A stretch of DNA of 64,000 nucleotides from a virus. The notes beneath the pieces were generated by a model. The model ran no database searches. It was not told the origin of the DNA and saw only the letters and a program-made list of their open reading frames with translations. The first letter of the stretch is position 1, and every line of letters starts with the position of its first letter. Shown here piece after piece: positions 299-62,399 of the stretch. A program made the translations under genes and the position numbers. The stretch is taken from the IMG/VR virus record IMGVR_UViG_3300030012_002750, positions 1 through 64,000 of that record. One strand, written 5' to 3'.

Positions 299-3200
299 AT
301 GGGTTCTTTTGTCCGCATCATCAAGTCCGATGAAAAAGAAGGTAAGAAGAAGAATTTCCAACCAAGCGGGCCAACCCAAAAAGGCTTTGACGCGTTGCAA
401 AAATACATGGACGAGGCCGAAAAAAAATATCTAAATAAAGATAATAAATTTGGTAATTTTTCATTCTTTGATGCTATAATATTCGCGAATAACCATTTAC
501 TCGCTAATGCATTGGGTTATAGCGGCTTAACACAAAGAGATGCTTCAAGAAGTATTCACGATGAGCGCGAAGATGACAATATGAGTTTAGGTGAAGAACC
601 TCTCATTAACGCGCCAGTTATGTTGCACCTAAAGCGATTGATTGCTAAACACCCCGAATTACAGGAAGCGCGCGATGAAGACGAAAAAGTAAATGGGAGT
701 TTAGAAGATGCTATGGCGGGTATGGATGGCATACGACCCGACATATCGGAGTTTATCGCTAAACCATACAATAAAAACCGATTTGCGCAAGAGCATGAAA
801 TCAATGGGATTCATAACTTATTTGAGAAATATATGCACCCAATAGCACCTACGATTGTAGCAGACGCTAAATTAGCCGGAAGTCAAATTCAACCTAATAT
901 CAAAAGACGGAAGCCGCAACCGCGAGTAAGAGTCACAGGTCCTATGACTGATACATCTTTTGAAGATGAAATGAACCAATTAGTGCAACAACAAAAAGAA
1001 AACATGAGGTTCAAAGACGATAAGAGATTCAAATATGGTGGTGAAAAACAACAGCGCGCCGCAGAAGATTACTACGACAAATTCTTTTCACAGACTGATA
1101 TTGACCGTGGGCCAAAAGCCCCAGCGAGTGTGTCGGTAAGAAGGCCACAAACACAAGAAACAAAGGCTTTAGAAACAAAACACAAAGATTTGATGCGAGA
1201 ATTCAATCTTGATAAAAAAGCCGCTTTTGCTAAGATTCAAGAGGGGTTTAACGATTTCATGATTTCATTAACAGGCAATAAGGCGTTCGGAACATCGGGG
1301 CGCGCAGGTAAATTTGGTGCTGAAATAGAAGTAGGGCGAACACCCGACGCGATTACTCCGTCAATGAATGAATTAGGCAGAAGTCTTGGTATTGGTATGC
1401 AAGCACCAAACATACCGGATTTCATCGGTAAGAGGTGGAGGGAAGATGCTAACCCTTTCAGTATGAATCTTAGAGAAGAAATAACAGAACAATTATCTAA
1501 TGAAACATCTAATCAAGGTTTTCACCCAACATTGTTAACTGCGATGGGCGAAGATGGTTTGTTAAGCACTTTGTATGGCGACCCAAGAGCATACACAACC
1601 GATACTGCTTTTATTAGTGGCGACCAAGAAGAAAAAGAAACACGCGCTAAAGAAGCACGCAGAAGTGAGAAAGGTGGTGCTGAAACCGAATCATCGTTGA
1701 TGACACCCGAAGATGAAATACAAGTCTTGCGCGGTAAAAGAAAATTGACTCCTTCGCAAAAAATACAACAATTAGAGCGACAATTGAACATCGGTGAAAT
1801 TGACGATTATGATTACAAAATGCAAATGATGGCAATGGATTTAGACGGACGACATCTATTAGACCCGGATGCTAAATTAGGAGGTTTAACTGGTGATGAT
1901 TTTGATGTCAACCACCCATTGCATGGTAAAAACGAAGATGATTTGATTGCTTCAACAGATACATTTGTTGATGGTCTAATTGGTATGGGTCGTATAATGC
2001 GACAGTTGAGATATGAAGCATACCAACATAGTGGTGCAGAATCACCAAAAGAAAAGCAAGACATTGATGATAAAATAGCCGCTTTGAAATTAGACGCGGA
2101 GAATATTGTTGCATTTGGCAAACCCCAAGAAGAACGCACCAAAGAAGAAAATACGCGCTATAAAAAATTAGATGCTTTGATGAATGGTAAATTATCAGCA
2201 TTCATTCCGAGGTTGACATCAACAATGAGTTATCAACAAAAATTGCTGAATAATTTAGGATTAAACCCTATTGATATTGTCAACGCCGCGATAAAATATG
2301 CAAACGCAGATATGACTACAACAGGCTACAATGAAGCATTCACATCTCTATTAGCATCACAAAGAAAAGACGGCACCCTAAACACATACCCGATAAGCCG
2401 TTTGTTAAAATATCTAAAAGATGTTGGATATAGACGCGCTTTAGATGAAGAATATCATGCACCGTTGATGGAGCAGAAAGAAAAATTCCGTAAAAACCAT
2501 GAAGCGCGACAAATTATGCAAAAGCAAAAAGTTGACATCAATGACCCCGACCACGAACACGCCGGAGATGTTGTTCATGATAGCGAAGAATGTCTTGCTT
2601 GCCACCCCGACAGATTTGGTAATAGAACTGCGAAAGAAGCGTATGCGCGTGGAGTAAGAAAACCCGACTATAAGGGAGGGCGATTAAGAAATGTCAAAAG
2701 CCCATTCGCTCATAAATCAGTAGTAGTGCCGTCATTGACAGGATATAGTAAAGGCGGTCAAAGTGGTATGTTGAGAGTGGTTGCACCCAAAGGTAGCCCT
2801 TCATTAGCCGCTATTGCTAATCACATATTCCCTAATAAGTATGACATTGATGATTTGTTAGAGCAAGATAAAACAGCACTTGAGCAAAAACGACATCAAA
2901 AATGGGAAAAAAAGTTGAAAGACAAGTTGAAGCGTGAAATCAAAGATGCTGTGATTACAGGAAACCCACGCGCGGCAAACATTTACAAAAAATTCGGACT
3001 AAGTAAAACTCTTGAAAATCCATTAGCGACAGGACCAGCAGGTATGTCCAATAAAGAATTAACAGCCGCGTCATTTTTCTTAAACAATGACGACGCTTAT
3101 GATAAACACTATGAGAAGGTAAGGAGTAGGAATTTATTAGCGACTCGCTACAATGCAATAGAAGATGCGCTATCATTCATCAAGGAGTTGACCGAGGGTG

Positions 3201-6200
3201 CTTATGGTAATAAAATAAAAGCGGGAGCATTAGCACAAGAGTCGTATAGACGCGACACATTAAAAGATATGATTTCACAACCATTAAGCGGTATAGAGAA
3301 ACAACGAGGTGTTATTGCGCGAAATGAAATTGAAAAAGCAACATACAAGAAGCAATATGCGCGCTATTTGAAAGAACAAGCGGAGTATGAAAATTTGTTG
3401 GCTGAAACCAAGATGGTGAAATATACAGATGAAGATGGCATTGAGCGCGAAAGACGCGGGAAATACGGTGAACCAGCGCAAGTAGCAATCATCAAAGATA
3501 TGGGTCAAAAAATAAAAAAAGAACACGGTAATATGTTAGCCATTATGAAACAGGCTGATAGAAAAATTGAGAAAGCCAAGAAAAAAATAGATAGATACGA
3601 AGACAAAAGTAGCCAATCTATTGAGCGCGCAAATAAACTTATGCTTGGTGCTTTTGTTATGGGTGGTGAAGAATTAGCAAACTTTGTTAAAAATCCTAAA
3701 GAAAGTAGCGAAAGAGAAGTTATTGAGAAAGTCTATAATAAATTATACGCGGATAGCCCTTCGGGTGAATACGATTCAATCATAACTGCTGATATGAAAG
3801 GCAACATAGGATATGATAAAACGCACAGTTTGTCCAAATACAAAGAAGGAAGATTAGGTCAAATGGCTGGAACAGGTATAAGATTTAATATCAACAACAA
3901 AGCAATGCCGCGTATTAATTCCCAAATGCAATTAATTGCTCATCGTATGAAAAATGGATTCCCACTTAGCGAAGAACAAATTGCGCAAGCCACCGCGATG
4001 ATGGACGACGCAGAAAACGCAGATGATAGTTTTGATGATGAAGCGTTAAATGAAGCAATTGCTAATTTATCATTAGAAGAATTAGCCGATGTCAACATGT
4101 CGGAGTTAAGACATCGTCACCACGACTCAAACGAAGATGAGTTGGGGTTGCTGTCCGAAGAAGAAGCGGCGCGTAGAGAGTTGAATTCACACTTTACAAG
4201 AGAAGCAGAAGAAGCAATTGCGCGTGGTGATTTCGCCAGCGCAAATCAATTGATAAGCAATTGGCGACAGCACGCGCCAACATTGTGCGGAACATGCCAT
4301 GGACATAGATTTGTGACAAGAGATGAAGCAAAAACATACTTGCGCCATCATATACCGGAATTAAGAGATGAACCAATGGGAAGTCCGAGGTTTGATAGAT
4401 ACATAGCGGATAATCTGCGACCACGCGGTGCTTCTTCATTCGCGGGACACGCGATGGCTGATGATATGGAAGATGATGAACATGAACAACTCGCTTGTCC
4501 TTCTTGTAATCACAGCGCGGATTATGTTAGGGGTGGACAATTATGTAATGGTATTTGCTCCGAGTGTGGCGGTAGCGGTATTCGCGACCCCGATGATGAA
4601 GCCCACTTGTATGAAGGTTATACAGACAAAGAAGGAAATAAGATAGATGGTAAAAATCACCACTATACACACAATGGTGCTGTTGACGCGAAGTTTGATT
4701 TCCTTAACTCATTAATGTTGCAAAGCGCGCAAGCCTCAATTGATGGTCATAAAATGCCAGCGGGTATGTTAGCACCATCAAAACCTCTATGGCAAATGTA
4801 TGGGGACGCTACTGATAGTGGACAGTTTAGAACACTTGAACAATTACGCGAAGCGCGCAAGAAGAAAGAGTTGCCGAAAATAGAAATTGACGAAGATGCC
4901 CCGGAGTTCCAAGGTGTGCCGTCGCGACAAATTGACCCCGCGATAGCAGAAGAGGTGCGTCAAAAGAAATTAGCAGAAAAACTTCTTGAGGAACCAACAA
5001 AACCTAAAGCGGAGATAAAATTACCTACTGTTCACAACACCGCAACAGAAAAACACAATCAACTTATGCTCGGAAATCATATTGATAAATTAGCGCGAAT
5101 GGCGATAGCAGGTCAAGGTAATGCTCCACAGTTCCAAAGTCAATTCAAAGGATTAACAAGCGATGGTGAAGAAATTTACGAACAGGTGCCGATAGATGTT
5201 AAACAACAAATTAACGATTTAGTTAATGAAATAAAAACACACCCAGCATTCCTCAACGGTGATGTCCACGGCAACACAGAACATCATTTGCTTGAGCAAA
5301 TACATAAATTGCAAGAATTAGCGGAAGCACCTTTTGTTGACGACCTAAGCGATGTTGAGGCTGGAAGACCAATGAAGAGAAAAGATAGAAACAAGTTAAT
5401 TGCTCAAAGGAGAAGATTGCCCGTTGATGAAAAGGGCAACATTTCTTTGACAGCCGCAGATGTGTTTGGTGGTAATTCACCTATGACATTTGGAGATTTT
5501 CAAGCACATTACCCCGCGCATGGTCGTATGTTGACTATGAAAGAAATCCGCGAAGGTGTCTTTAAGCCGGGTGCGACACACGCACCAAGCGATATAACCG
5601 ATGAAGATTTGAAAAGATTATTTGCAGGTAATAGAAAAGCGCAAGGTGTAATAAAAAGACGCGAAAGAGTCAATGATTATAGCCCCGAAGCGATACAAAG
5701 TATAGTAGATGTATTTGATAAGATAAAAAGACCTATGACTCGTCGTAAGACAACAAACTTGACGAGTTCCGCGTTAAACGATTTGCTTAGAAATTATGGT
5801 GAAAAAGAAATGGTTGGTGAAATGGAAGACCATCATTTGACTTATAGCGATGAAACTATGAAAGCAATTGCTGATAGTGATATTACCAAGAGTAAAGTTA
5901 ACAATCTTTTGACATCGGCTAACGCAGATGGAAAACAACGCCCGTTGAATAGCCGATACACGATGGGTTTGAATATGGCTATACGAGAAATGTGGCAAAA
6001 ATACGCTATAATGAGCGCAATGAGTGTATTTATGCGCGAAATTAATAATCCTCTTGAATTCCCTAAGATACCGCAAAGTATCAATCAAAATAACTTTCAA
6101 GATTTGACACGCGAAGATAGTGCATTGTATGAACTGATGCATGACGAAGCCGCGAAACTACTTGGGTATGATGATTACAACGAGTTTGAAAAGAAGTTTA

Positions 6201-6889
6201 ACTTAAAGAAAACAGCACAGATTACTGGTGGAAGAGGTAATATAATTCAAGAAATTAAACCGTTAGAGTTCAAAGACAGCGTGATGGCGAATGCAAAACA
6301 CAGCGATGAAGGTGAATTCCCTATCGGTTATGAAGAATTAAAAAGAAATGAAGACGGCGAGATAGAGAGTAAGTTTGTTCCTTCTATGACATCAGCAATA
6401 CTTGAGCGAGCGAGAAACTCTTTAACAACACCAGCAGACCAACAAATGTATGATGTCATGAAGAAGGTTGGTAATTATCACGAATGTCCAAATTGGTATC
6501 ATCGCGACACTATAAACAACTTAGTTAAAGGCCAAGAAGGTAAAGAAGATGGATTCGCTAACTTTGAAGAACTTAGACAAGCACACGCTAATAACGCTTT
6601 ACCGCCGGAATTAGCAAAAGAAATTACTACATCATTTATGTTAGCATACATGTCACACCCGACATTATCACTTCAAAACCATGATGATATGCTCAAATAC
6701 GAACATGCTGTAAATGAGGGGCGAGCCGCGACACCTCCTGTGCAACCTGCACCGCAACCTGTTCAACAACCTGCACCACCTGTTCAACAACCTGTTCAAC
6801 AACCTGTTCAACAAATGGAATATCCACGCTATGAAGTCATGTTTGGTCGGCCTATAAGAAGAATAGATAGCGACGAAGATTCTCAATAA
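299..6889 (+). CDS. Giant uncharacterised protein (2,196 aa) with CxxC zinc-finger clusters
   Basis: A single uninterrupted frame of 2,196 codons; I do not recognise the family. It is hydrophilic, rich in Asp, Glu, Lys, Asn and Gln, and has no obvious membrane segment or signal peptide. A CxxC pair lies near residue 765. A DnaJ-like zinc cluster lies near residues 1330-1425, with CGTCHGH, CPSC and CSECGGSG spaced like CxxCxGxG repeats. Predicted coiled-coil or helical stretches (K/E/Q-rich) fill residues 1040-1200. The C-terminus carries VQQP repeats. There is no SD before the ATG at 299, so translation may be leaderless. Its position upstream of the packaging genes, and its size, suggest a virion-internal or injected protein; this is inference. 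The truncated gene at 62595 may be of a similar kind. Confidence 0.85.
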   Translation: MGSFVRIIKSDEKEGKKKNFQPSGPTQKGFDALQKYMDEAEKKYLNKDNKFGNFSFFDAIIFANNHLLANALGYSGLTQRDASRSIHDEREDDNMSLGEEPLINAPVMLHLKRLIAKHPELQEARDEDEKVNGSLEDAMAGMDGIRPDISEFIAKPYNKNRFAQEHEINGIHNLFEKYMHPIAPTIVADAKLAGSQIQPNIKRRKPQPRVRVTGPMTDTSFEDEMNQLVQQQKENMRFKDDKRFKYGGEKQQRAAEDYYDKFFSQTDIDRGPKAPASVSVRRPQTQETKALETKHKDLMREFNLDKKAAFAKIQEGFNDFMISLTGNKAFGTSGRAGKFGAEIEVGRTPDAITPSMNELGRSLGIGMQAPNIPDFIGKRWREDANPFSMNLREEITEQLSNETSNQGFHPTLLTAMGEDGLLSTLYGDPRAYTTDTAFISGDQEEKETRAKEARRSEKGGAETESSLMTPEDEIQVLRGKRKLTPSQKIQQLERQLNIGEIDDYDYKMQMMAMDLDGRHLLDPDAKLGGLTGDDFDVNHPLHGKNEDDLIASTDTFVDGLIGMGRIMRQLRYEAYQHSGAESPKEKQDIDDKIAALKLDAENIVAFGKPQEERTKEENTRYKKLDALMNGKLSAFIPRLTSTMSYQQKLLNNLGLNPIDIVNAAIKYANADMTTTGYNEAFTSLLASQRKDGTLNTYPISRLLKYLKDVGYRRALDEEYHAPLMEQKEKFRKNHEARQIMQKQKVDINDPDHEHAGDVVHDSEECLACHPDRFGNRTAKEAYARGVRKPDYKGGRLRNVKSPFAHKSVVVPSLTGYSKGGQSGMLRVVAPKGSPSLAAIANHIFPNKYDIDDLLEQDKTALEQKRHQKWEKKLKDKLKREIKDAVITGNPRAANIYKKFGLSKTLENPLATGPAGMSNKELTAASFFLNNDDAYDKHYEKVRSRNLLATRYNAIEDALSFIKELTEGAYGNKIKAGALAQESYRRDTLKDMISQPLSGIEKQRGVIARNEIEKATYKKQYARYLKEQAEYENLLAETKMVKYTDEDGIERERRGKYGEPAQVAIIKDMGQKIKKEHGNMLAIMKQADRKIEKAKKKIDRYEDKSSQSIERANKLMLGAFVMGGEELANFVKNPKESSEREVIEKVYNKLYADSPSGEYDSIITADMKGNIGYDKTHSLSKYKEGRLGQMAGTGIRFNINNKAMPRINSQMQLIAHRMKNGFPLSEEQIAQATAMMDDAENADDSFDDEALNEAIANLSLEELADVNMSELRHRHHDSNEDELGLLSEEEAARRELNSHFTREAEEAIARGDFASANQLISNWRQHAPTLCGTCHGHRFVTRDEAKTYLRHHIPELRDEPMGSPRFDRYIADNLRPRGASSFAGHAMADDMEDDEHEQLACPSCNHSADYVRGGQLCNGICSECGGSGIRDPDDEAHLYEGYTDKEGNKIDGKNHHYTHNGAVDAKFDFLNSLMLQSAQASIDGHKMPAGMLAPSKPLWQMYGDATDSGQFRTLEQLREARKKKELPKIEIDEDAPEFQGVPSRQIDPAIAEEVRQKKLAEKLLEEPTKPKAEIKLPTVHNTATEKHNQLMLGNHIDKLARMAIAGQGNAPQFQSQFKGLTSDGEEIYEQVPIDVKQQINDLVNEIKTHPAFLNGDVHGNTEHHLLEQIHKLQELAEAPFVDDLSDVEAGRPMKRKDRNKLIAQRRRLPVDEKGNISLTAADVFGGNSPMTFGDFQAHYPAHGRMLTMKEIREGVFKPGATHAPSDITDEDLKRLFAGNRKAQGVIKRRERVNDYSPEAIQSIVDVFDKIKRPMTRRKTTNLTSSALNDLLRNYGEKEMVGEMEDHHLTYSDETMKAIADSDITKSKVNNLLTSANADGKQRPLNSRYTMGLNMAIREMWQKYAIMSAMSVFMREINNPLEFPKIPQSINQNNFQDLTREDSALYELMHDEAAKLLGYDDYNEFEKKFNLKKTAQITGGRGNIIQEIKPLEFKDSVMANAKHSDEGEFPIGYEELKRNEDGEIESKFVPSMTSAILERARNSLTTPADQQMYDVMKKVGNYHECPNWYHRDTINNLVKGQEGKEDGFANFEELRQAHANNALPPELAKEITTSFMLAYMSHPTLSLQNHDDMLKYEHAVNEGRAATPPVQPAPQPVQQPAPPVQQPVQQPVQQMEYPRYEVMFGRPIRRIDSDEDSQ
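6758..6814 (+). repeat. 12-bp tandem repeat encoding PVQQ
   Basis: CCTGTTCAACAA occurs at 6758-6769 and three times in tandem at 6779-6814, encoding Pro-Val-Gln-Gln units near the C-terminus of the giant protein. It is a low-complexity linker that probably varies in copy number. Confidence 0.8.
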
Positions 6890-7001
6890 TATCATTTTAT
6901 TATTACAAAGATAATTAATATATTGTTATAATAATAATATTATAATATTGATAAAAAGGTGAATCAATAGACTTATTTATGGTTCGCGCCACGCATTACG
7001 C
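6890..7001 (+). promoter_or_regulatory. AT-rich intergenic region, probable promoter
   Basis: This is the longest AT-rich gap inside the module. It is made largely of TATAAT-, AATATT- and ATTATAAT-like runs between the giant gene and the GTPase/membrane cassette. Several overlapping TATA-like stretches lie around 6915-6950. A promoter for the downstream cassette is the simplest reading; no exact element can be fixed by eye. Confidence 0.4.
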
Positions 7002-7017
7002 AAGGAGGTTGGTTGTT

Positions 7018-7536
7018 ATGCAAGAGCGAACACCACAAAATAAAGACGAATTAAGAGTATTAGGGCTAATTTCATTTGTAAGCATACTTGTTGGTTGCGC
7101 TGTCGCGGTATTTGATGCAGGGCTATGGTTGAAAGATACTTCAACCCATACAAATGCAATCACATATATGATGGGTGCATTCACATTACAGGGAATGGCC
7201 TATTTCATTTACAAAATGTTGGCTCAAGACGGAATGGACCAACGCGCAATCATTTCAAATATGCAACGGAACATGACGCGACAAATGCAAAGCCAACAAA
7301 TGCGATTTGCGCAAGCGCAAATGGATATGGAAATCAAAAAACAAGAAGTGGCATTCGCGAAACAGATGGAAGAATTAGAAAAAGACCCCGAAGTTCAACA
7401 ATATCTTGGATTGATGGGTCTTGACACCGAAGAAGATACCCCACAACATAAAGCCACAGAAAAAAAAGCAATTAAATTAGGCACTAATAAGCCACGAAAC
7501 GCTGATGGCACTTACAAAAAGATAAACAAGGGGTGA
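7018..7536 (+). CDS. Small membrane protein with two TM segments and Gln/Met-rich coiled coil
   Basis: The frame opens at 6979, but ATG 7018 is preceded by a perfect AGGAGGT at a normal distance, so I place the start there (172 aa). Two hydrophobic helices (about residues 13-40 and 48-70) are followed by a long amphipathic Gln, Met, Arg and Lys-rich segment that looks coiled-coil, then an acidic and basic tail. The likely topology is a membrane anchor with an internal coiled coil. It is the first gene of the cassette with the Arf-like GTPase and two other small membrane proteins, suggesting a membrane-associated complex. Function is unknown. Confidence 0.75.
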   Translation: MQERTPQNKDELRVLGLISFVSILVGCAVAVFDAGLWLKDTSTHTNAITYMMGAFTLQGMAYFIYKMLAQDGMDQRAIISNMQRNMTRQMQSQQMRFAQAQMDMEIKKQEVAFAKQMEELEKDPEVQQYLGLMGLDTEEDTPQHKATEKKAIKLGTNKPRNADGTYKKINKG

Positions 7537-7541
7537 AAGTT

Positions 7542-7778
7542 ATGGGTTGGTTATTCAAAACCCCAAGCGATGATGCGACAGAAGCCACGCTACGCGCTTT
7601 ACATACACAAAATACGCTTGATACATATTATGAGCGTGGTAAAGCCTTAGTGTTGTGTATAATTGTTGGTTTTGTATCAGCATTAGGTGTGTCTTGGTTT
7701 GAGTATGGCACAGATTTTAGCGTTTGGGAGAATACTGTTAATTGGTTCTTAGAAAAAATACGCGGCTGGGTGGGGTGA
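7542..7778 (+). CDS. Small single-TM protein
   Basis: 78 aa from ATG 7542, which sits a few bases after GGGGTGA; a GTG at 7533 overlapping the previous stop is an alternative. A cytosolic-looking N-terminus of about 30 residues precedes one clear membrane helix (LVLCIIVGFVSALGVSW). A short Trp-rich amphipathic C-terminus ends in WVG. It lies directly upstream of, and translationally coupled to, the GTPase gene. It could be the membrane partner of that GTPase. No family recognised. Confidence 0.7.
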   Translation: MGWLFKTPSDDATEATLRALHTQNTLDTYYERGKALVLCIIVGFVSALGVSWFEYGTDFSVWENTVNWFLEKIRGWVG

Positions 7779-8501
7779 TTGGTTGCAACATTCGCTGGAA
7801 GCGCACTTATGGGGGCAGTTGTTTATGGTCGCGAACTATACAACTTCCTCAAACCGCGCAGAATCGGCGTTTATGGACCAACACAAGTCGGTAAGACGAC
7901 ACTTGACCAATTTATGAGAACGCCGGGAGAAATGGACGATATAGAGGAAAGGACTATGCACGCTCAACGGTTATTTGGTGGTGGATATGTGCTTCCTAAA
8001 GCAAGTCGTAAGCGTATTCGCTGGAAAGGAGAAAAAAGAGTAGTGCATTCCGCTGACATTGGCGGTCAACAGCGTTTTTGGAACCTATGGATTGATGATA
8101 TGGTTGATAGACAGGTTGAAATTGCTATTTTTATGACTGATACGCGCGTTTTGAAAGGAAATGGTGCGCAAATTATTGACGCGGTGGGTGGTTTTGAGTA
8201 TCTTGTTGACTCGTTGATAGAAAAAAGATGGAAATATCGCTCTTTAAAATCAAGATTGAAAGGAAAACGCTACGCTCCAAAGCAAATATGGCTTGTAGCG
8301 AACAAAGCCGATGAATGGTGGGACGATAATGCTAACATTTTATGGCAATCTAACCGTTTGCGAGAACATAAAGTGTTTGATGCGCACCGCCCAGCCATGC
8401 GAAGACTACAAAAAGCGGGTATTCCGTGTCGTGTTAGCATGATGGCGACTAAAATTGGCTGGAATGTGGAAAAAACAATGATAGAAATGCTAAGTTGGTG
8501 A
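7779..8501 (+). CDS. Arf/Ras-superfamily-like small GTPase
   Basis: 240 aa from TTG 7779, immediately after the preceding TGA; ATG 7809 is the alternative. G1/P-loop GPTQVGKT is at residues 33-40. G3 DIGGQ at 93-97 is followed by QRFWNLW, closely matching the Arf/SarA/G-alpha pattern DxGGQxxxRxLW and keeping the catalytic-type Gln. G4 NKAD is at 175-178. A G5-like ATKIG motif sits near the C-terminus, where Arf proteins have CATSGDG. A mildly hydrophobic N-terminus precedes the G domain. The protein should bind and hydrolyse GTP and act as a switch, probably at a membrane given its neighbours. A small GTPase inside a tailed-virus late module is unexpected. Fold confidence is high; the role is unknown. 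Confidence 0.8.
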   Translation: MVATFAGSALMGAVVYGRELYNFLKPRRIGVYGPTQVGKTTLDQFMRTPGEMDDIEERTMHAQRLFGGGYVLPKASRKRIRWKGEKRVVHSADIGGQQRFWNLWIDDMVDRQVEIAIFMTDTRVLKGNGAQIIDAVGGFEYLVDSLIEKRWKYRSLKSRLKGKRYAPKQIWLVANKADEWWDDNANILWQSNRLREHKVFDAHRPAMRRLQKAGIPCRVSMMATKIGWNVEKTMIEMLSW

Positions 8502-8505
8502 TAAA

Positions 8506-9390
8506 ATGCTTGGAAATACACCCCAAAATGACCTAATGCGCCTTGCCGCACAAACACAGATGAGTCTTGCACAAATGCAACAACAGGCTACCGCACAAGC
8601 CGCGATGAGCAACATAAGTGAGCATATTGAAGTCCCACAAGTCAATTTTTACCCTTCACAACACCCAAATCCCAAAAAAGCGCGCAGAAAAGACATAAAA
8701 CAAGCGTATAAACTGCTAAAACCGACAAAAAGAAGCATTTTTTCGCCGCGAAGGTGGTTATTTGGTGGAAAATACCGATATAATACCAATACAATGCGTT
8801 GTGTTATTGATGGAGCGGATATTGAACACCTTTTACGGCACGCAGGGAACATATATGAGCAGGTAATTGATGAAGAAACTGGTCAATCTTTATGGGATTT
8901 ATACTTCAAAAACCCCGTTACAGGGGAGGTTGAAGCCTTTGTAGCGCGTGAAAATGTTACAAGTGGGCGTAAAATGCGCGGAACATACTGTCCCGAACAC
9001 CTACATTTGTATCATTTATTATGTAAATGGGAAAAAGAAGAAGAAAAAGAGCAAGAGGCGAACAACGGAACACTAAGAGCCAAGTTGAGAAAGGGTGTTT
9101 CAACGGTTGCTGTGCCGATAAGTAGCATAAAAAAGAAAGATAACACACCCCCTATATTATCAAAATACGAACAATTCTTTCAAATGCTAAAACAAGACAA
9201 TATTCCTATCACACATCTAACTAATGCCGCGACAGGCATGAATGATTTAGTAATGATTGTCTTTGATATGCGTCAATTTCAAGCAGGGAATAATGCAAGA
9301 TTGCTATATGATGCGCTCGCTATCCATCAATCCCAGCAACAATCGGCACCTCTCCCACTACCGACAGAATCAAATGATGGGAGCGCGTGA
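8506..9390 (+). CDS. Uncharacterised 294-aa protein, Gln-rich N-terminus
   Basis: The ATG at 8506 follows GGTGAT closely. The first 35 residues are Met/Gln/Ala-rich and helical-looking. A basic stretch (KKARRKDIKQAYKLLK) follows, then a globular part with YCPEH and a later Cys (about residues 164-178) that could bind a metal. A Lys/Glu-rich segment and a hydrophobic strand (DLVMIVFDM) lie near the C-terminus. I do not recognise the family. It is co-directional with the GTPase and a Gln/Asn-rich protein, so it probably belongs to the same cassette. Confidence 0.65.
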   Translation: MLGNTPQNDLMRLAAQTQMSLAQMQQQATAQAAMSNISEHIEVPQVNFYPSQHPNPKKARRKDIKQAYKLLKPTKRSIFSPRRWLFGGKYRYNTNTMRCVIDGADIEHLLRHAGNIYEQVIDEETGQSLWDLYFKNPVTGEVEAFVARENVTSGRKMRGTYCPEHLHLYHLLCKWEKEEEKEQEANNGTLRAKLRKGVSTVAVPISSIKKKDNTPPILSKYEQFFQMLKQDNIPITHLTNAATGMNDLVMIVFDMRQFQAGNNARLLYDALAIHQSQQQSAPLPLPTESNDGSA

Positions 9391-9399
9391 GGTGGTATC

Positions 9400-9978
9400 A
9401 TGGTGTGGCCGTTCAATAACAATAATCAACAAAATCAGCAACAAAATGGTGCTTTGAATCTTGGATTACCCGGTGGACAACAACAAGTTGCCGCGCAAGG
9501 TCAACAGCAATGGAGTCAACAACAATATGGCTTTCAATATCAAGCACCTCCGACTGAAATGGAGATACTATCAGCGATGATAACAACAAATCCAATGATA
9601 GATAAGTGGTTGTCCGACAATAATGGCTCCAATATGAATATGTTTGTATCACTTTTGAGCAGTTTAGTCGCGGTATCAGTTAATACTTTACTCAAAGATG
9701 CGCGTTTAGTTGAAGATGGAGATGGATATAAGTTTGATTTTAGCGGAGTTCAAGGATTACCGACTGTTGATAGCGTAACTATGTCGCAAACTCAATTACT
9801 AAACAACGCATCAAACAATGTTCAGCAAAAAAATATGCAGTTCCAACAAATGGTTCAACTCGCGAATCAAGGTGTAATGCAAAACATGTTGAACGAGGCT
9901 ATGGCTGACCCCGGATTGATGCAAAATGTCGGCGGTGGTATTGGTTCATTTGTTCGTGGAATAGCCGGAGGTAGATGA
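9400..9978 (+). CDS. Gln/Asn-rich 192-aa protein
   Basis: ATG 9400 is preceded by GAGGTGG. The N-terminal 45 residues are dominated by Asn and Gln (prion-like low complexity). The middle has a hydrophobic helix (MFVSLLSSLVAVSVNTLL, about residues 82-99). The C-terminal third is again Gln/Met/Asn-rich and ends in a Gly-rich tail. The composition suggests self-assembly or a flexible scaffold; this is inference. It belongs to the GTPase/membrane cassette by position. Confidence 0.65.
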   Translation: MVWPFNNNNQQNQQQNGALNLGLPGGQQQVAAQGQQQWSQQQYGFQYQAPPTEMEILSAMITTNPMIDKWLSDNNGSNMNMFVSLLSSLVAVSVNTLLKDARLVEDGDGYKFDFSGVQGLPTVDSVTMSQTQLLNNASNNVQQKNMQFQQMVQLANQGVMQNMLNEAMADPGLMQNVGGGIGSFVRGIAGGR

Positions 9979-9979
9979 T

Positions 9980-10213
9980 ATGGATATTGGCTCTCTTTAC
10001 ACCACTATTAGTGATATGACTAACTTGCGTAAGTCTGTTGTTGTTGATATGATTATGGTTCAACTTATTTCTTTGACACTTGGTTGTTTCTTAATTTTGG
10101 TTTTCTCCGGCCCACAGATGTCCTCAACAGATTTAAGTTGGGTTATAGGTGCTTTATTCATCTGTTTCAGCGCAAGCGGTATTGTTTATCGTCGGCTCGG
10201 CCAACAAGGTTGA
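9980..10213 (+). CDS. Small protein with two TM segments
   Basis: 77 aa. The ATG at 9980 follows GGAGGT at good spacing and begins one base after the previous stop codon. Two hydrophobic helices (about residues 26-44 and 52-70) form a hairpin with a short polar loop, and the C-terminus is basic. Holin-like proteins have this size and topology, but so do many unrelated small membrane proteins. Its 3' end overlaps the convergent minus-strand gene by 60 bases. Confidence 0.65.
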   Translation: MDIGSLYTTISDMTNLRKSVVVDMIMVQLISLTLGCFLILVFSGPQMSSTDLSWVIGALFICFSASGIVYRRLGQQG

Positions 10214-10462
10214 CCATTTTCCAATAGGGCATTCGCTGTTTTTAAAAATAGTTTTTGTTTTGATAAAACAACCACAAAGACTGCATCTATCGTGGTTTCT
10301 TTCGGAGCATGTCAAGCAAATGTTGTAGCGACGCTCTCTTTCTGTTAAGTCTGCGCGTTGATTTGTGATTAAATCAGCCGCGGCTCGCGAAAGACTCTTA
10401 GCGGTTCCTAATGAGATTGGAACTCCGCCTATTTTTGGTGCGCGTTTCAATCTCTTTCTCAT
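10154..10462 (-). CDS. Phage-type zinc-finger protein (CxxC...CxxCGCF...CPIGKW)
   Basis: 102 aa on the minus strand, the only convincing gene on that strand. The motif order is ICLTC, RCSLCGCF and ECPIGKW (about residues 49-82), the arrangement of a small zinc-binding protein common in marine tailed phages, where the last element is usually CPxGKW. The N-terminus is basic. Its end runs convergently 60 bases into the preceding small membrane-protein gene, and its start faces the next plus-strand gene across 38 bases. Role unknown; it is probably an accessory regulator or nucleic-acid binder. Confidence 0.75.
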   Translation of the reverse strand: MRKRLKRAPKIGGVPISLGTAKSLSRAAADLITNQRADLTERERRYNICLTCSERNHDRCSLCGCFIKTKTIFKNSECPIGKWSTLLAEPTINNTACAETDE

Positions 10463-10500
10463 GGGAAAGACTCTTTTGCTACCACTACTTGGTCTTTGCT

Positions 10501-11169
10501 ATGGCGGAGCGTATATCAAGAGCCTCTTGTAAGTTCTGTCAAGACCCCGACCGCGATGGTATCGAAGAAATGATGAAGGCTGGGTTGATTACTGCGAAGC
10601 AATTAGACAAAGATAAAGGGTGGCGAGAAGGCACCGCTGATAGGCATTTTCGCAACCACATGGGAGAATATCACATGGGTAGTAATAGCGAATGTGGTTT
10701 TTGTGTATCTTCAAAAAGAGAAAGTTTGGAGATGGCGTATTTTAACGCCAGTATGACTGTTGAAGAAATAGCCCAAGATTTGCAAATGCCCGAATCCAGT
10801 GTTTATCATCATCTTAAACATCATCTTAAGCCAGTAGTGCAGAAAGGCGCGGCAGATATTATCATAGTTGAGGCTGGTAAAGAAATGGAGAGTTTGCGAA
10901 CAAATTTATCGCGCATAAATGGCGAATTGGGTCATTTTCTTGACGATGCAGACCGCAATGACCCACAATATGTTCGCAACATAGTATCTTTACACAAAGA
11001 AGTTCGCGAAACAGTCAAAGATATTATGAGAGTGCAAGAACGCGCGGCTGGTAATACTAACGAAACCATGAACGCACAGACGATAAACATACTCAAAGTT
11101 GAATTAGCGAAAGAGTCCCCCGAAGTATGGGCGCGGTTGCGTGGTAAATTGATAGGGGGTGATGAATGA
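10501..11169 (+). CDS. Duplicated zinc/HTH DNA-binding protein, small-terminase candidate
   Basis: 222 aa from ATG 10501; the frame is open from 10411, but that would overlap the divergent gene. Two tandem modules share one plan: CxFC, a helical stretch, then HxxxH. Module one runs from CKFC to HFRNH (about residues 10-53). Module two runs from CGFC to HLKHH (about 65-107) and contains the HTH-like segment MTVEEIAQDLQMPESSVYHHL. The rest is helical and probably oligomeric. Small terminases bind DNA through an N-terminal HTH and oligomerise through a helical core, and this gene lies upstream of the large terminase. That assignment is an inference; another DNA-binding regulator is possible. Confidence 0.65.
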   Translation: MAERISRASCKFCQDPDRDGIEEMMKAGLITAKQLDKDKGWREGTADRHFRNHMGEYHMGSNSECGFCVSSKRESLEMAYFNASMTVEEIAQDLQMPESSVYHHLKHHLKPVVQKGAADIIIVEAGKEMESLRTNLSRINGELGHFLDDADRNDPQYVRNIVSLHKEVRETVKDIMRVQERAAGNTNETMNAQTINILKVELAKESPEVWARLRGKLIGGDE

Positions 11170-15851: not shown

Positions 15852-17252
15852 GTGCAGTCGTTATCACTTGAAGCAATTGAGGAAATTGACTTTGAGGTAG
15901 CGAAGCGTGATTTCAAATTTTTCTTTGAAGAAATACTTGGGTTTCAACTATCGTGGCATCACGAACAATGGTTCAACAATCTTGAGTCGCGTAAAAGATA
16001 TTGTGTTAAAGCGGCGCGTGACCACGGCAAGTCAACGCTATTTCTTGGTTATATGCTTTGGAAAACAGCGTTTAATCCAAAGACCAAAGCGGTATTGATT
16101 TCACACAGTCTTCACCAGTCTATACATCACATGAGAACACTTAACGATTTGATTGATAGTGTGCCGTTTCTTGCTAAAATGAAGAAGCCGGATTCTTGGT
16201 CAAAGACATTTTTTGGTTTTGCTAATGGTTCTAACATTAGCGCGAAGTCGGTTGGTGGTGCTATCCGTGGTATTCACCCCGACCTTATTTTATGCGACGA
16301 CATTCTGTGGGGAACAACTGACACAGAACTTGCTCGCGTCGCATCATGGTTTTATGAAGTCCTTGTCCCGACGCTCCACCACACATCAAAACTAATGATA
16401 GTTGGGACACCCTTTACTCCAACTGATTTATACACAGAACTTGAAAGTCGCGACGGTTATCTTGTTGAAACATATCCGGCTATCAATCTCAAAGGTGAAG
16501 CGTTGTGGCCGGAGCGTTGGGACTTAGAATCATTAGATGCGCGCAGAAATGATATGCCAGCGATAGCATTCGCGCGTGAATATCTTTGTGAACCAATGGA
16601 CGATGTATCAAGTCTATTCCCATCAACCATTCTTCAAGCCGCTAAAGACTCATCGTTGAAGTTGATTGAACGCGAAGTAGGCGACCCCGACGACCAATAC
16701 TTCATTGGTTGGGACCCTGCGATTTCAAGCGACCGAGCGGCTGACTATACTGTAATGGTGGTGCTTCGCCGTCCATCAACTAATCCCGAACTGCTTGAGT
16801 TAGTTCACGCAATCCGTCGTAAGAATATGGACTTCCGCACACAGATTATGGAGATTCAAAGACTCAACGCGAAGTTTAACCCCGATGTGATTGAACTTGA
16901 AGCAAACAACTTCCAGCGTGTGTTTGCGACTGAATTACGCGCAGATACAGATTTACCTATCAAGACATTTATTTCCACACGCCAACGCCGCGAGTCGCTT
17001 CTCATGGGTTTGGTGTTGCGCTTTGAGAAAGAGCAAATCCGTTTGCCGTGGGGTGATGACCGTTCTCGCACGCTGATGTCCGAACTTGAGCGGGAGTTGC
17101 TTATGTTTGGTATGAGCAAGAAAGGTCGGCTTGATAGCATCGGTAGGCACGATGACTTTGCTATTGCTCTCGCGTTGGCGCATTGGGCGACCACGGAGTT
17201 CCGTGAGCGCATTGTGGACTTAGATGAAATAATGGCGGGGTTGTTAGATTGA
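15852..17252 (+). CDS. terL: Terminase large subunit
   Basis: 466 aa from GTG 15852. This is the DNA-packaging motor: an N-terminal ATPase and a C-terminal RNase H-fold nuclease. Walker A ARDHGKST is at residues 55-62 and Walker B LILCDD at 145-150. The coupling motif IVGTP lies near 183-187. The nuclease domain begins with FIGWDPA (Asp288), has an acidic IELEANN strand near 347-353, and ends with the metal-site HDD at 433-435. Length is typical. It docks on the portal encoded at 19796 and ends in a TTGA overlap with a small Cys-rich gene. Confidence 0.95.
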   Translation: MQSLSLEAIEEIDFEVAKRDFKFFFEEILGFQLSWHHEQWFNNLESRKRYCVKAARDHGKSTLFLGYMLWKTAFNPKTKAVLISHSLHQSIHHMRTLNDLIDSVPFLAKMKKPDSWSKTFFGFANGSNISAKSVGGAIRGIHPDLILCDDILWGTTDTELARVASWFYEVLVPTLHHTSKLMIVGTPFTPTDLYTELESRDGYLVETYPAINLKGEALWPERWDLESLDARRNDMPAIAFAREYLCEPMDDVSSLFPSTILQAAKDSSLKLIEREVGDPDDQYFIGWDPAISSDRAADYTVMVVLRRPSTNPELLELVHAIRRKNMDFRTQIMEIQRLNAKFNPDVIELEANNFQRVFATELRADTDLPIKTFISTRQRRESLLMGLVLRFEKEQIRLPWGDDRSRTLMSELERELLMFGMSKKGRLDSIGRHDDFAIALALAHWATTEFRERIVDLDEIMAGLLD

Positions 17253-18285: not shown

Positions 18286-18408
18286 ATGTTTGAATATTGC
18301 GGGTGGTGCTATGTTGATGAAAGCGTCTATCCGTTCGGGCTATGTAAGAAGTGTTGGATTAAGTATGGTAAACCTCAACCAATGAATGTGAAAGGTGAGG
18401 CAACATGA
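18286..18408 (+). CDS. 40-aa CxxC zinc-ribbon peptide
   Basis: It begins one base after the previous stop and ends in an ATGA overlap with the next start. CGWC and CKKC pairs 15 residues apart make a minimal zinc ribbon. AAAGGTGAGG near its end serves as ribosome site for the next gene. Too short for homology recognition. Confidence 0.6.
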   Translation: MFEYCGWCYVDESVYPFGLCKKCWIKYGKPQPMNVKGEAT

Positions 18409-19796
18409 TTATTGATTTATCCGATGAAAATACTTTCATTGATATGATATTGAAAAATACTATACAGGGTGCATCATTTGGTGATGCGCCACAACCAATT
18501 AATCAAGGTCAAGGACAAGCAAACGCTAATCCAACACCACCAAAGCCCAACGAAACTGGTGAGCAAGAAGAAAAAGACAAAATAAAACAAGTGGTGCAAG
18601 AACAACTCAAGCGTTCATTACCCGATGGAGGTTGGTTTCAATCAATGTTTGGTCGCGGTGCTGGTGATTTAGTTAAAGATTTGAGATTGGCGCGGCGTGA
18701 ACATAAAGACATGCGCGATGCTATCGACCACGCTATCGACGCTATTCGCATTGCTAAAAAACAAGAGGTTGAGGCTACCCTTCAATCAATTGAATGGATT
18801 GGTAAGCACGAAGATACAGTTAGAAATTTAGGTATTAGTGAGCGTGATTTACAAGCGTTGCGCAAACATGGTGTAAATCGCGAATATGCACTTCGCCGCG
18901 CTTGTGTTCAATGGGAGAAAGCAAATGATATTATCAGTAAATTGCTTTTGATAGATGGGGAATTCAATGATGAACAAAGGCAAATGTGGGTTGACGCACA
19001 ACAATTAAAAAAGAATTCTAAGAAAGAATGGAAAAATAGTTTGCACTCGATTGACAACATCAAAAAAAGTGAAGCGATATGGTTGACTAAAGCAACATCA
19101 ATACTTGAAAAGCGGGGTCCGTTATCAGCGAGAGAACTTGTTGGTAGTATGAGCGGAGTGAAAAGTTTAACTACACAGAAATTGAGCGCGCTCTTCAAAA
19201 TGCATGGAGTTGAATATGATATTGAAAAGATTGGCGCATCATGGGGTATAGTTCGCGATGACACAGTTATTTTCAAAGATGTATGGGCTTACGCCGCTGG
19301 ATTTCTTGACGCTGATGGTTATATTACAATCACTAAGCGTCTTGAGCCAAGGGCTGGGTTTATAGCCACAGGAGAAAGAGGTAAGATGCATTGTGAACAA
19401 TTACACAAGGCTCTTGGATGCGGTGTTCTTCAAACAGATTTGAAGATTCATAAAAATAGCAGACGAACGCAACATAGATTACAGTTTTATAGTGAGAATG
19501 ATTTAAGGAAATTAATGAAAGGTTTGCGTCCACACCTCCGAATGAAAAAAGGTCAAGCGGGTGCTGTTCTTGAGTTGCTTAATTTGCGCGGTCGCAAAAC
19601 TGACATTATCAAATCTCGACGCGATGAATTGTATCGTATAGTAAAATGGTTAAACTGGAAAGATGTGCCGGACAAGCGTGAAGAATTGCTTAAAGAGTGG
19701 AACATTGATGAACTCGGACTTCATGCGATGTTTAATCGGGATGGCGAAACCCTGCGTCTTCTTGACGACGCTAACCGACTTGTGGAGATGATGTGA
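18405..19796 (+). CDS. 463-aa protein with C-terminal LAGLIDADG endonuclease-like domain
   Basis: Residues 1-60 are Gln/Pro-rich and disordered. Residues 60-215 are helical and highly charged, unknown. Residues 220-290 resemble a winged-helix. Residues 294-306 (WAYAAGFLDADGY) are a clear LAGLIDADG-type motif with both acidic residues, followed by an alpha/beta region to about 420 that fits one homing-endonuclease half-domain. Such enzymes cut DNA as dimers and are usually free-standing or in introns and inteins. Here the domain is fused in frame to an unrelated N-terminus, and both gene ends overlap neighbours, so it looks domesticated. It is coupled to the portal gene. Confidence 0.75.
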   Translation: MIIDLSDENTFIDMILKNTIQGASFGDAPQPINQGQGQANANPTPPKPNETGEQEEKDKIKQVVQEQLKRSLPDGGWFQSMFGRGAGDLVKDLRLARREHKDMRDAIDHAIDAIRIAKKQEVEATLQSIEWIGKHEDTVRNLGISERDLQALRKHGVNREYALRRACVQWEKANDIISKLLLIDGEFNDEQRQMWVDAQQLKKNSKKEWKNSLHSIDNIKKSEAIWLTKATSILEKRGPLSARELVGSMSGVKSLTTQKLSALFKMHGVEYDIEKIGASWGIVRDDTVIFKDVWAYAAGFLDADGYITITKRLEPRAGFIATGERGKMHCEQLHKALGCGVLQTDLKIHKNSRRTQHRLQFYSENDLRKLMKGLRPHLRMKKGQAGAVLELLNLRGRKTDIIKSRRDELYRIVKWLNWKDVPDKREELLKEWNIDELGLHAMFNRDGETLRLLDDANRLVEMM

Positions 19797-41677: not shown

Positions 41678-44600
41678 ATGACGGTTATTACTCATTCAAC
41701 TCATGCTATGTTTTTCAATGGCATCAGCGATAGTGTAGTTTGTCCTCAAGGAATTTTTACCAAAACTGGTCATAAGCGCGAGATATATGGCGGGGTTGCT
41801 CGCTCTTCTGCGCCTATATTACAAGACGACGACGGCCACCGTTTTGCTAACGCAAATAACCAAACGCTGGGTAAATTCACAGTTGAGGCTTGGGTATCTC
41901 CCGATTGCGGTGGTATAATCGCAAGTAAAGATGAACTGTTTGAATTGCGTATGGGGACAATTGATGCTCCGGGTGTTGCATCTTTTAAAGTTCAATTTAG
42001 CAACGGTGTTACAGCAATTGCTTCAAGCGCGAATAATTATCCGACAGCGGCGGCAAGTTTTGTTAGGAATGATGTTGGATACAATAAAGGACAGCGCGAA
42101 TTATATCACATATCGGGAGAGTTCAACGGTGAACAGGTTAAACTATATGTCAATGGAGAATTGATGGCTTCACATAAAATGAACAAAAAATACACATGTA
42201 ATCTCAACGACCAAGATTTTTACATTGGTGGTAAAGGTGGAGAGTATCGCGGATACATAGAGTCTGTTCAATGGAAAAATGATGTATCAACAATGGAAAG
42301 TCGGACTAAGCCTTTGATGTTGTCGAACAGCACTATTGGTCTTTGGCGATTTGAAGAACCAGTTGAGGTTGATGATGATGTTTTTTACATCACATCAAAT
42401 GTTAACGCTGGTGATACTACAATTACGATAGGAGCCGCCGCGTGTCAATCATTATACGAAACAGTAAGTGGTAAATCCGGCACACTGTTTACTACTTATA
42501 CTCTTGAAAGTCTTGGTAATTATCAAGTTGCTAACGCCGCTCATAGCGGTGGTGCGCAAGTTATTGAAGTTCCGCACACGATGTTTAATTTAATTATCAA
42601 CCCAACAGGAACCGATGTATTATCTCAACAACCTAACGGTTCACCACCGGAGCGTGTGCGTCTTAAATCAATCAATCCTCTCGGAACAATCACCGTTGAA
42701 AGCATACATCTTGATTTCAGTGTATCAACAGACACAGGTGCGCGTGGTGTTTTACATTCGCGCACAGCATTCAACAGCGGTAATAACCTCGCTAATGACT
42801 CCGCGATGGTTTTGGTGCGCTCGGATTTATTGATTGATGGTGAAACAGGCAAGCCGTATCAAAGAATTGGGACAGCAAGCCAAGCCATTGATAGAACAGG
42901 TGCAATGGTTATTGATGAAAGCCCAAATGAATTTCATGGTTTTTTATATTCAAGAAGTCTTGCCGTTGGTAATAATTTTTCACCCGCTTCTTGGACTATC
43001 GCGGAGCGTTTCAAATCCGGTCATACTGGCCGTCATAAATACACACATAGAGAAGGACACCCTTACCTTCATTTGCTACCACCTATACACGAACAGGAGT
43101 TAACAAGAACTATTGACGGTATATCCGATGACGCGCTGATTACATTTGCGGGTAGTTATATTGGTTTAAAATCAGCAATACCAATCAATAGCAAAGCCTT
43201 TGTTTCGCACACAGCATTTAACGGGAAAATAATGAAAGTTAAAACATCGGCTACAACTAACGGTGTTGTTCGTAATGGTCTTGCTTCTATTGATGCTCAC
43301 CGCGATGGTATAATCGCAATATCAGTTGATGATATTGAGCCATTTTTATTAAAGGGTGGAGGTATAGGTGTTAATTCACAATCGGATAGTCAATACATAA
43401 ACCATCTTACACCGGAAAAAGATTCGCGTGTTGCTATCCTTGAAGTGGCGGGTTTGACCGCTAAATATGTTGAGATTCATTATAACGCTATTGACCTCAC
43501 AGGAGGTAAAATGGGGTTAGCAAATCCAGCAATTCTTGTCGAGAAAACAGTCCCCGATGGTGGTTGTTTATTAGATGGTAAAAGAGTTGCCGCGCATATC
43601 GCTGATGCTGTTGGTGCTGGCGCGACAATACATTCTCCGGGCGGTATCATTACTGCTTCACCGCAAGATGTGGGCGATGCTCAAGTTGCTATGAAACCTC
43701 ACCATCTCGTAGGAGATAACGCAGGTGGGTTTGATTATGAAAAGGGATTGAATGAATCATTTTTACCATCTGCATATACACCTCGTAGCACAGGTGACGA
43801 ACCTAATAAGCCACCACAAGGGGTAGCAACAACAACTCACCCATCAGTATATCACAGAATACATATTCAACCAATGCAAAGAAGTGCAAGCGACCCACCA
43901 ATAAATGAAGCACCAACTCACTATCAAGAGAGTGTTCAGTTTGCTTCACAGAAAGGTGGGGCGTTTGAGATGTTTGATGTGATTGATAACAATAAGCAAG
44001 GTGATTCATATATTTTTATTGTTCAGCCGAGTAAGCGCGAAAGAACAATGCAATTGTCGCGAACAACACCTGCTACAATTGATTCTAACGATTGCACTTT
44101 CTTTACAATTGAGTATATTCAATCAACCGTAAGAGTAGTTTCAATGCAGGTAAATGATACAGGCGCGGGTCGTTATTTAGTTATGGAGGGGCAAGGTATG
44201 ATGAGTGATGTGTCCGACCAAACAGTATCTTATGGTGGTGATGGCAGTCGTGATTCTCATATCGTCAAAGAAATACAACCGGGCGCACCTGTTGTATCTG
44301 TTACTCTTGGTGGTGCGGGTCAAGGTGCTATCAATACAAAACCATCATGGGACCCTGCATCTATATCGCGCGTTGGTTGGAATACTCGACAGACTTGTGC
44401 AGTTAGAGTTGCCAGTTTTGATACTACGGCAAACACAATAACAGTAATTACACTAAACAATAAAGCGCGACACATTGGTTCGATGCAATCAACTTCTTGG
44501 GGAACATATTGTTTTCCAGCGACAGGTCGCATATATTTACCGAATGGTGCAAATGCTGAATATACATCTAAAACTGGTTCAGCATTTACATTCCCTGCAT

Positions 44601-62243: not shown

Positions 62244-62399
62244 ATGTTATGGATATGGTTTTTGTTAGCAGTAGTGGCTGGATTTGTATTGACTTGGTTT
62301 TCTATGATTGACGATAAAGATACAAATTTTATTATTTTTGACTCGGAAGAGGAACTTCAACAGGCATGTTGGAACGGATTACGGAAAGGTGTGAAGTGA
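62244..62399 (+). CDS. 51-aa single-TM protein
   Basis: ATG 62244 follows AAGGTGAAAA; the stop overlaps the next ATG (TGATG). A membrane helix (LWIWFLLAVVAGFVLTWF) at the N-terminus is followed by an acidic, soluble tail. It could be a spanin- or holin-related protein or an envelope peptide; not determinable. Confidence 0.55.
   Translation: MLWIWFLLAVVAGFVLTWFSMIDDKDTNFIIFDSEEELQQACWNGLRKGVK

Follow-up and report, generated by a model that had tools for sequence, protein, structure and literature searches.

The DNA analysed here, referred to below as the window, comprises positions 1 to 64,000 of the IMG/VR record IMGVR_UViG_3300030012_002750. The interval 7018-10213 shows a compact architecture: six ORFs, termed G1, G2, GTPase, G4, G5 and G6 (Table 1), are all present and form a co-directional run on the same strand, as in the original prediction, although the gene list of the latter had missed a minus-strand DUF6171 gene. 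A ribosome-binding site, AAGGAGGT, precedes the ATG of G1 at 7018, and the GTPase gene uses a TTG start codon, its ORF opening immediately past the stop codon of G2; across loci the gap between these two genes has a median length of 1 nt. The suggestion that the run sits behind its own A+T-rich, promoter-like gap held with regard to composition (across loci, a median A+T of 64% vs 55%), but the promoter itself is unproven, with a TATA-like hexamer present in just 61 of 165 loci. The start of the probable small terminase subunit (TerS) was picked by family length.

Table 1. Positions of the cassette genes and adjacent features in the window
Feature	Position	Strand	Basis or occurrence
A+T-rich intergenic gap, possible promoter	6890-7017	+	window sequence; A+T-rich across loci
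G1, 172-aa membrane protein	7018-7536	+	ORF; 168/172 loci
G2, 78-81-aa single-TM protein	7533-7778	+	ORF; 170/172 loci
Small GTPase, 240 aa	7779-8501	+	motifs, fold, profile comparison
G4, 294-aa soluble protein, probable zinc domain	8506-9390	+	invariant Cys/His; 172/172 loci
G5, 192-aa Gln/Asn-rich protein	9400-9978	+	ORF; 172/172 loci
G6, 77-aa two-TM protein	9980-10213	+	ORF; 172/172 loci
DUF6171 gene	10154-10462	-	between G6 and probable TerS
Probable small terminase subunit (TerS)	10471-11169	+	HTH Pfam match, position before TerL, synteny
Large terminase subunit (TerL)	15852-17252	+	used for GTPase-independent sampling of viruses

Sequence, predicted fold and family placement of the GTPase

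The 240-aa product displays the following guanine-nucleotide motifs (always named as motifs below, as distinct from the proteins G1 to G6): motif G1 (GPTQVGKT, residues 33-40), the switch-I threonine (Thr59), motif G3 (DIGGQ, 93-97), motif G4 (NKAD, 175-178) and motif G5 (MMAT, 222-224), with a tryptophan (Trp104) at D+11 relative to motif G3. In the family assembled here (172 homologues/loci in total; 44 in the non-redundant set), GxxxxGKT, the switch-I Thr, DxGG, NKAD and MAT are invariant in 171-172 of the 172 loci, Asp93 of motif G3 being kept in all 172; the earlier reading of motifs G1, G3 (with its downstream Trp) and G4 is thus borne out. The catalytic Gln that it had included does not hold as a family-wide feature: residue 97 is Q in 113 loci, E in 49, D in 8 and H in 2, i.e. 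Gln97 is replaced in 59/172 loci, through about nine changes on the tree. Two elements are family-specific, namely a basic insert at about residues 150-165, before motif G4, and a long insertion in the switch regions, the spacing from switch I to motif G3 being longer by roughly 12-15 residues than in Ras or Arf. The AF2 model begins with a hydrophobic, Gly-rich helix (residues 3-24) of moderate hydrophobicity and weak amphipathicity (mean moment 0.24).

Single-protein searches of Pfam, PHROG and PDB sequences with the GTPase found nothing, be it at the gathering cut-off of PF00025 (Arf), for any other Pfam family above cut-off or for any PHROG; families were therefore built before further comparison. 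Weak PF00025 matches occur in 16 of the 44 family members (best E 0.006), and HHalign with the GTPase family returned probabilities of 98.1% for Arf, 98.2% for Rag and 96.7% for Ras, against 0.4% for a viral terminase P-loop used as a control, which speaks against a non-switch P-loop reading of 7779-8501. The AF2 model (mean pLDDT 68) has 748 PDB matches at E<=0.001, with Rab, Arl2, Ras and G-alpha structures at E as low as 4e-7; all among the matches listed are small GTPases or G-alpha, Arl2 (9edt_G) having the top TM-score of these. Taken on its motifs, predicted fold and profile comparison, the product is a divergent switch-type small GTPase, as had been proposed, and since the cut-off of no Pfam family is reached it is placed in a new small-GTPase family that is not assignable to Arf. 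The more specific Arf-type label was accordingly dropped: the Pfam Arf cut-off is missed, the Arf and Rag scores are indistinguishable and the Gln is not conserved.

The comparison with known families is instructive on both sides. With the Arf/Sar/SR-beta proteins (PF00025) the viral GTPase has in common DxGGQ and its downstream Trp (D+11), the AT of motif G5, the fold and an N-terminal hydrophobic helix (with a weak moment in the viral protein), but it differs in its sub-cut-off Pfam score, the basic insert before motif G4 and the variable Gln. The similarity to Gtr/Rag (PF04670) spans only 81 aligned columns in the half running from motif G1 to motif G3, and the C-terminal domain of Rag was not seen in the viral GTPase. 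Membership in MglA was rejected: the MglA version of motif G3 lacks an Asp that other GTPases conserve (PMC4316618) and that is present throughout the viral family, and no Pfam match to a Roadblock/LC7 (MglB-type) partner was found among the neighbour genes of the GTPase. The Ras/Rab proteins of giant viruses, recovered as BFVD matches, share a virus-encoded small-GTPase fold; however, they are genes of eukaryotic viruses, whereas the gene described here is operonic and a fixed member of the core set in tailed viruses of prokaryotes, and no protein among the BFVD matches listed is named as a product of the latter. Likewise, tblastn with the window GTPase against 50,697 phage records gave no match, and with a distant family member chance-level matches only.

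The associated proteins and the ArvABC parallel

The three small membrane proteins previously noted as flanking the GTPase were recovered: G1 with one strong and one weaker segment, after which comes a Gln/Met-rich stretch that is a probable coiled coil, G2 with one predicted segment and G6 with two. G5 has a single marginal hydrophobic segment; it and the N-terminus of G4 are Gln-rich, as had also been observed. G4 contains the invariant residues C99, C162, H165, H167 and H170, and this Cys/His motif, found in 172/172 loci, probably constitutes a zinc domain. Comparison of the G4 model with the PDB gave no significant match and no known fold neighbour, and Roadblock/longin (MglB-like) and ArfGAP folds were rejected as candidates on this account.

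By analogy, the nearest functional parallel to the cassette is the archaeal vesicle operon ArvABC (OapABC). In Haloferax, the small GTPase ArvA, whose N-terminus forms an amphipathic helix, governs vesicle formation together with ArvB and the Zn-ribbon protein ArvC, the last of which is proposed as a GAP (PMC10927574). The two sets have in common a small GTPase carrying a hydrophobic helix at its N-terminus (ArvA being likened by its description only) and a zinc-type protein, probable in the case of G4, beside the GTPase in a short conserved operon of an archaeon or archaeal virus. They differ in that G4 has another Cys/His motif, with neither DUF2072 (ArvC) nor a Zn-ribbon among the Pfam matches shown for its family, and in that the viral operon adds the membrane proteins G1, G2 and G6; ArvB (DUF2073/PF09846) was found in 0/18 viral genomes.

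Conservation of the cassette and identity of the viruses

The gene order of the cassette is invariant, and it lies directly upstream of the probable TerS, the next same-strand gene past it, in every locus reaching that far. The six genes therefore form a conserved block, as anticipated, and the contrary expectation, that the neighbours would be absent next to GTPase homologues, was not borne out; the four of 172 loci without G1 are consistent with contigs ending first. When loci were sampled through the terminase, independently of the GTPase, 120/120 carried the latter. In 18/18 records of 92-118 kb the GTPase is single-copy and on the strand opposite to the DNA polymerase. The GTPase gene is complete and intact, and purifying selection acts on each of the six genes (median dN/dS 0.06-0.10); together with the conserved motifs, this shows that the reading is no product of chance. 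The cassette itself is stable, with a variable region upstream of it. The late tailed-virus location inferred earlier also stands, as the cassette adjoins the terminase genes on the virion strand. It belongs to the core of the late (virion) half in these marine tailed viruses of archaea, which make up a large lineage.

A scan of bacterial and archaeal genomes for the GTPase recovered only three MAG contigs, labelled Cytophagaceae, Asgard and Maricaulis; these look viral and binned with unrelated hosts, and no cellular donor is proposed. Asgard orthologues were dismissed, as 119 genomes of that phylum gave only weak matches to Arf-like proteins of about 300 aa.

The capsid and portal of this virus match archaeal tailed viruses only, and, judged by genome features rather than by direct similarity to the exemplars ON649702, OR863078 and PP497039, it is an archaeal tailed virus of the magrovirus type. 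Shared with Magrovirales (Aoguangviridae, Apasviridae; PMC10768690, PMC12999244) are genomes of about 90-118 kb, PolB, a virion module encoded on the strand opposite to the replication module, and a Druskaviridae-like capsid and portal. TFB scored above cut-off in 2/18 genomes; MCM helicase, reported for Aobingvirus but not shown to define Magrovirales, had no Pfam match above cut-off among the 18. The one magrovirus survey searched makes no mention of a GTPase.

Candidate roles in release, assembly and exclusion

We tentatively favour, at a probability of about 0.4, a late membrane-anchored GTPase switch that acts with its partners in virion release. The GTPase would be held at the host membrane by its hydrophobic N-terminal helix and/or by G2 and G1; GTP binding would alter the switch regions and thereby recruit or assemble G1, G2, G5 and G6; and the zinc-like G4 would serve as a partner or GTPase-activating factor, which could be why the Gln in cis is often lost. 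The host membrane would thereby be remodelled or opened late in infection, either in vesicle-like egress or in timed lysis, with a logic comparable to that of Arf with ArfGAP and of the ArvABC system. Of the functions entertained in the original prediction, membrane remodelling, egress and lysis are still possible candidates. Counted in its favour are the invariance of the motifs, the fixed linkage, the purifying selection, the G4 motif and the ArvABC parallel; against it stand the weak amphipathicity of the N-terminal helix, the missing ArvB and ArvC matches, the lack of a fold neighbour for G4, the position of the cassette, which abuts terminase/head genes and fits assembly equally, and a separate 1-TM gene behind the tail genes (62244-62399), a possible release gene in its own right. 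A bolder version, in which an Arf-like viral membrane machine made up of the switch GTPase, a zinc-type activating partner and membrane adaptors forms an essential core set budding or opening the archaeal host membrane for the release of virions, is a doubtful proposition.

The main rival is a role in virion assembly or DNA delivery, in which G1, G2, G5 and G6 would be packaged or be membrane proteins of the assembly site and the GTPase would act as a checkpoint of assembly or as a packaging-coupled motor regulator, with its basic insert binding DNA or portal; this is conceivable but on the improbable side. The placement directly upstream of TerS/TerL, the universality shared with the terminase genes, the Gln-rich composition of G4/G5, reminiscent of structural or ejected proteins, and the family-specific basic insert are all compatible with it. 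However, the cassette is missing from two related archaeal viruses whose portal and capsid are homologous, so the head machinery that they share does not depend on it; moreover, no small GTPase is known in tailed-virus packaging or ejection. Lysis timing, with G1, G2 and G6 as holin-like pores restrained by the GTPase until its GTP/GDP state or GTP depletion triggers them, has in its favour that nearly all the short TM proteins in the 64-kb late region are encoded in the cassette and that no lysis mechanism is known for archaeal tailed viruses. It is nevertheless unlikely, as profile searches matched no cassette protein to a holin family (two weak holin PHROG matches, E 0.04, are at chance level) and the 1-TM gene at 62244-62399, downstream of the tail genes, is another candidate.

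Less probable still is a pseudo-GTPase scaffold that binds GTP without hydrolysis as a fixed assembly platform: the Glu, Asp or His at residue 97 speaks for it, but none of the remaining residues for nucleotide binding and switching varies, and the prokaryotic Rup Group 1 GTPases also lack this Gln, which a partner is thought to supply (PMC4316618). A cassette for superinfection exclusion, as entertained in the original prediction, or for defence or anti-defence is the least credible of these readings. An NTPase with small membrane proteins is a common form of such systems, but genes for exclusion or defence usually have the patchy distribution of accessory genes, unlike a block that is universal in the terminase-sampled loci, invariant in order and placed on the late virion strand, and the PADLOC anti-phage defence models found no match in the cassette.

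The release switch, if real, would mean that GTPase-controlled membrane work, until now a matter of cells and giant viruses, also belongs to the core functions of prokaryotic tailed viruses, and a budding machine of this kind would be a viral counterpart of GTPase-driven vesiculation in an archaea-infecting lineage. Should the role lie in assembly instead, a tailed-virus lineage with a switch GTPase among its universal late genes still appears undescribed, given the absence of the protein from the phage records, PHROGs and the one magrovirus survey searched. For the exit route of archaeal tailed viruses from their hosts, which is largely unknown, the cassette presents a defined, testable gene set, and the viruses carrying it belong to abundant marine lineages.

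Gene order and conservation of the cassette

The six co-directional genes of the original prediction are confirmed as real open reading frames within a virus record of 64,515 bases. The start of G1 adopted here is preferred over that given by the ORF finder (6979) because of the ribosome-binding site ahead of it. Relatives typically have a gap of ~225 nt between G6 and the small terminase subunit (TerS), suggesting that a gene is often located there; in the window this place is taken by a DUF6171 gene on the opposite strand. It is followed by an HTH protein, which judging by its position is probably TerS; another three proteins separate this one from the large terminase (TerL) at 15852.

Coordinates of the cassette genes and of further features discussed in the text
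Feature	Position	Strand	Remarks
G1	7018-7536	+	ORF; AAGGAGGT ribosome-binding site before ATG at 7018
G2	7533-7778	+	ORF
GTPase	7779-8501	+	ORF
G4	8506-9390	+	ORF
G5	9400-9978	+	ORF
G6	9980-10213	+	ORF
DUF6171 gene	10154-10462	-	E 2e-7; overlaps G6 end, directly after cassette
2196-aa protein	299-6889	+	directly upstream of cassette
Protein with LAGLIDADG-like stretch	18405-19796	+	between terminase and portal
5162-aa single ORF	41678-57166	+	tail region
51-aa single-TM protein	62244-62399	+	after presumed tail genes

The order G1-G2-GTPase-G4-G5-G6-TerS-G8-G9-TerL is identical, as far as contigs extend, across the 172 loci found via the GTPase. To remove ascertainment bias, loci were also sampled independently of the GTPase with three different large terminases as queries: GTPase, G4, G5, G6 and TerS are present in 120/120 loci with enough upstream sequence, and none of the shorter ones is inconsistent with the cassette. 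These 120 loci represent 94 distinct terminase proteins, the safer count since some contigs were found in more than one scan, and distant relatives without the cassette may exist because the queries derived from known carriers. All six genes are under purifying selection (median dN/dS 0.06-0.10), and gene content upstream of G1 differs freely among genomes. Thus, in both samples GTPase homologues are accompanied by their neighbors, and the cassette stands as a conserved six-gene block.

The 2196-aa protein contains CxxC/CxxH clusters and matches no Pfam family; it was found in 35 loci and is missing from most other relatives.

A small-GTPase family on the Arf/Rag side

As a single query the window GTPase has no sequence match in Pfam or PDB. 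Its motifs, namely G33xxxxGKT40, Thr59, D93-x-G/A-G96, Trp104 (D+11), NKAD 175-178 and AT 223-224, are invariant or nearly so among 24, then 44 diverse homologues. Individual members weakly match Roc, Arf, RagA, MMR_HSR1 and Ras, and 35/44 weakly match TIGR00231 (small_GTP). The AlphaFold2 model shows a small-GTPase fold (pLDDT 68, pTM 0.68), for which Foldseek has Rab, Arl2, Ras and G-alpha among the matches listed (best E 3.8e-7; top listed target-normalized TM-score 0.64, Arl2), with giant-virus Ras/Rab proteins the top named matches among viral models. HHalign relates the family to Arf (98.1%, 134 columns, spanning the G1 to G4 motifs), Rag (98.2%, 81 columns) and Ras (96.7%), in contrast to 0.4% for a viral terminase P-loop as control. 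The claim of a switch-type GTPase, as against a non-switch P-loop protein, is thus upheld; of the Arf-type label, the Arf/Rag side is retained and the filing as Arf is not, this being a new small-GTPase family not assignable to Arf.

The catalytic Gln of the original prediction is not a constant feature: at the position following DxGG, 113 of the 172 loci have Q, 49 have E, 8 have D and 2 have H, and a tree built without that column implies roughly nine changes there. If the GTPase hydrolyses GTP, a partner or a Glu must often substitute. Switch I (T59) and G3 (D93) are 34 residues apart, the corresponding spacing in Arf and Ras being ~19-22. The N-terminal helix (residues 3-24) is hydrophobic, Gly-rich and weakly amphipathic, with G7 and G12 invariant in the non-redundant set, and a basic stretch at ~150-165 precedes the G4 motif.

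The GTPase has no match among 50,697 phage records and no convincing PHROG, and no structural neighbor among the matches listed is named as a prokaryotic-virus protein. A magrovirus survey (PMC10160649) makes no reference to a GTPase, and no magrovirus GTPase report was found in the literature searched, which covers the key magrovirus papers in part, so that earlier annotation is possible. Small GTPases themselves being known, we rate the family and its setting as new. The nearest cellular matches found are Asgard-phylum proteins of ~300 aa (L175, L176, L177 and L179, from genome scans), in which a C-terminal Arf-like domain (LDxGGQxDFWxLW) follows an N-terminal domain.

Partner proteins and proposed role

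The expected small membrane proteins around the GTPase are recovered by prediction: G1 has two TM segments and a probable coiled coil, G2 one and G6 two. Together with one marginal segment in G5, these are nearly all the short membrane proteins of the late region, the remainder being the 51-aa protein and some possibly spurious minus-strand ORFs. G4 and the GTPase are the most conserved cassette proteins. In G4, C99, C162, H165, H167 and H170 are invariant in 172/172 loci, and C104 is present in 152 of 172 (Ala in the window); 25/61 members weakly match the CxC6 cysteine-cluster model. Its AlphaFold2 core is confident across residues 50-186, and the structure search found no PDB counterpart for it.

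The cassette thus holds an intact GTPase in obligate linkage with membrane proteins and a Cys/His partner, on the late strand and universally in the sampled loci. We propose that the GTPase might be a switch anchored at the membrane, with G4 as its putative activating partner and membrane remodeling for virus release as the proposed output. The best functional parallel is presented by ArvABC of Haloferax volcanii, where the small GTPase ArvA carries an amphipathic helix at its N-terminus and drives the formation of vesicles; this activity falls about threefold on loss of ArvB and rises on loss of the Zn-ribbon protein ArvC, a proposed GAP (PMC10927574). Here, too, a GTPase with a predicted N-terminal helix and a probable zinc-type partner share one operon; however, ArvB is absent from 18 viral genomes and G4 is distinct from ArvC, limiting the resemblance to working principle. 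The main rival to a release role is that the cassette may work in assembly, packaging or DNA delivery, which its position adjoining the terminase would also fit. Superinfection exclusion, raised by the original prediction, is disfavored by the universality of the cassette and by the absence of a match to any defense system.

The 51-aa protein occupies a classical release-gene position and is an alternative lysis candidate.

Virus lineage and late-region observations

Capsid and portal match archaeal tailed viruses only (Druskaviridae, viruses of Methanomassiliicoccales and Methanofastidiosa). All 18 relatives of 92-118 kb encode a family-B DNA polymerase and a single GTPase gene, always on the opposite strand to it; TFB is above cut-off in 2/18. 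These features match the published description of Magrovirales (PMC10768690, PMC12999244), making this placement probable, short of proven since MCM was not found in the 18 genomes and the comparison is with the description of the order. The related HVTV-1 and vir335 genomes have no GTPase, nor did the examined stretches of them yield any other cassette gene; thus, the cassette is lineage-specific and outside the shared head machinery.

One cassette-bearing contig (L095, 1-8011) is binned into a 3.8-Mb MAG labeled Asgard group archaeon, probably by mis-binning. The protein between terminase and portal has a LAGLIDADG-like stretch (AGFLDADGYITI), spotted by eye, and no Pfam match at 0.01; HNH endonuclease genes of HVTV-1 sit at similar places. 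The 5162-aa ORF is very large for a tailed virus.
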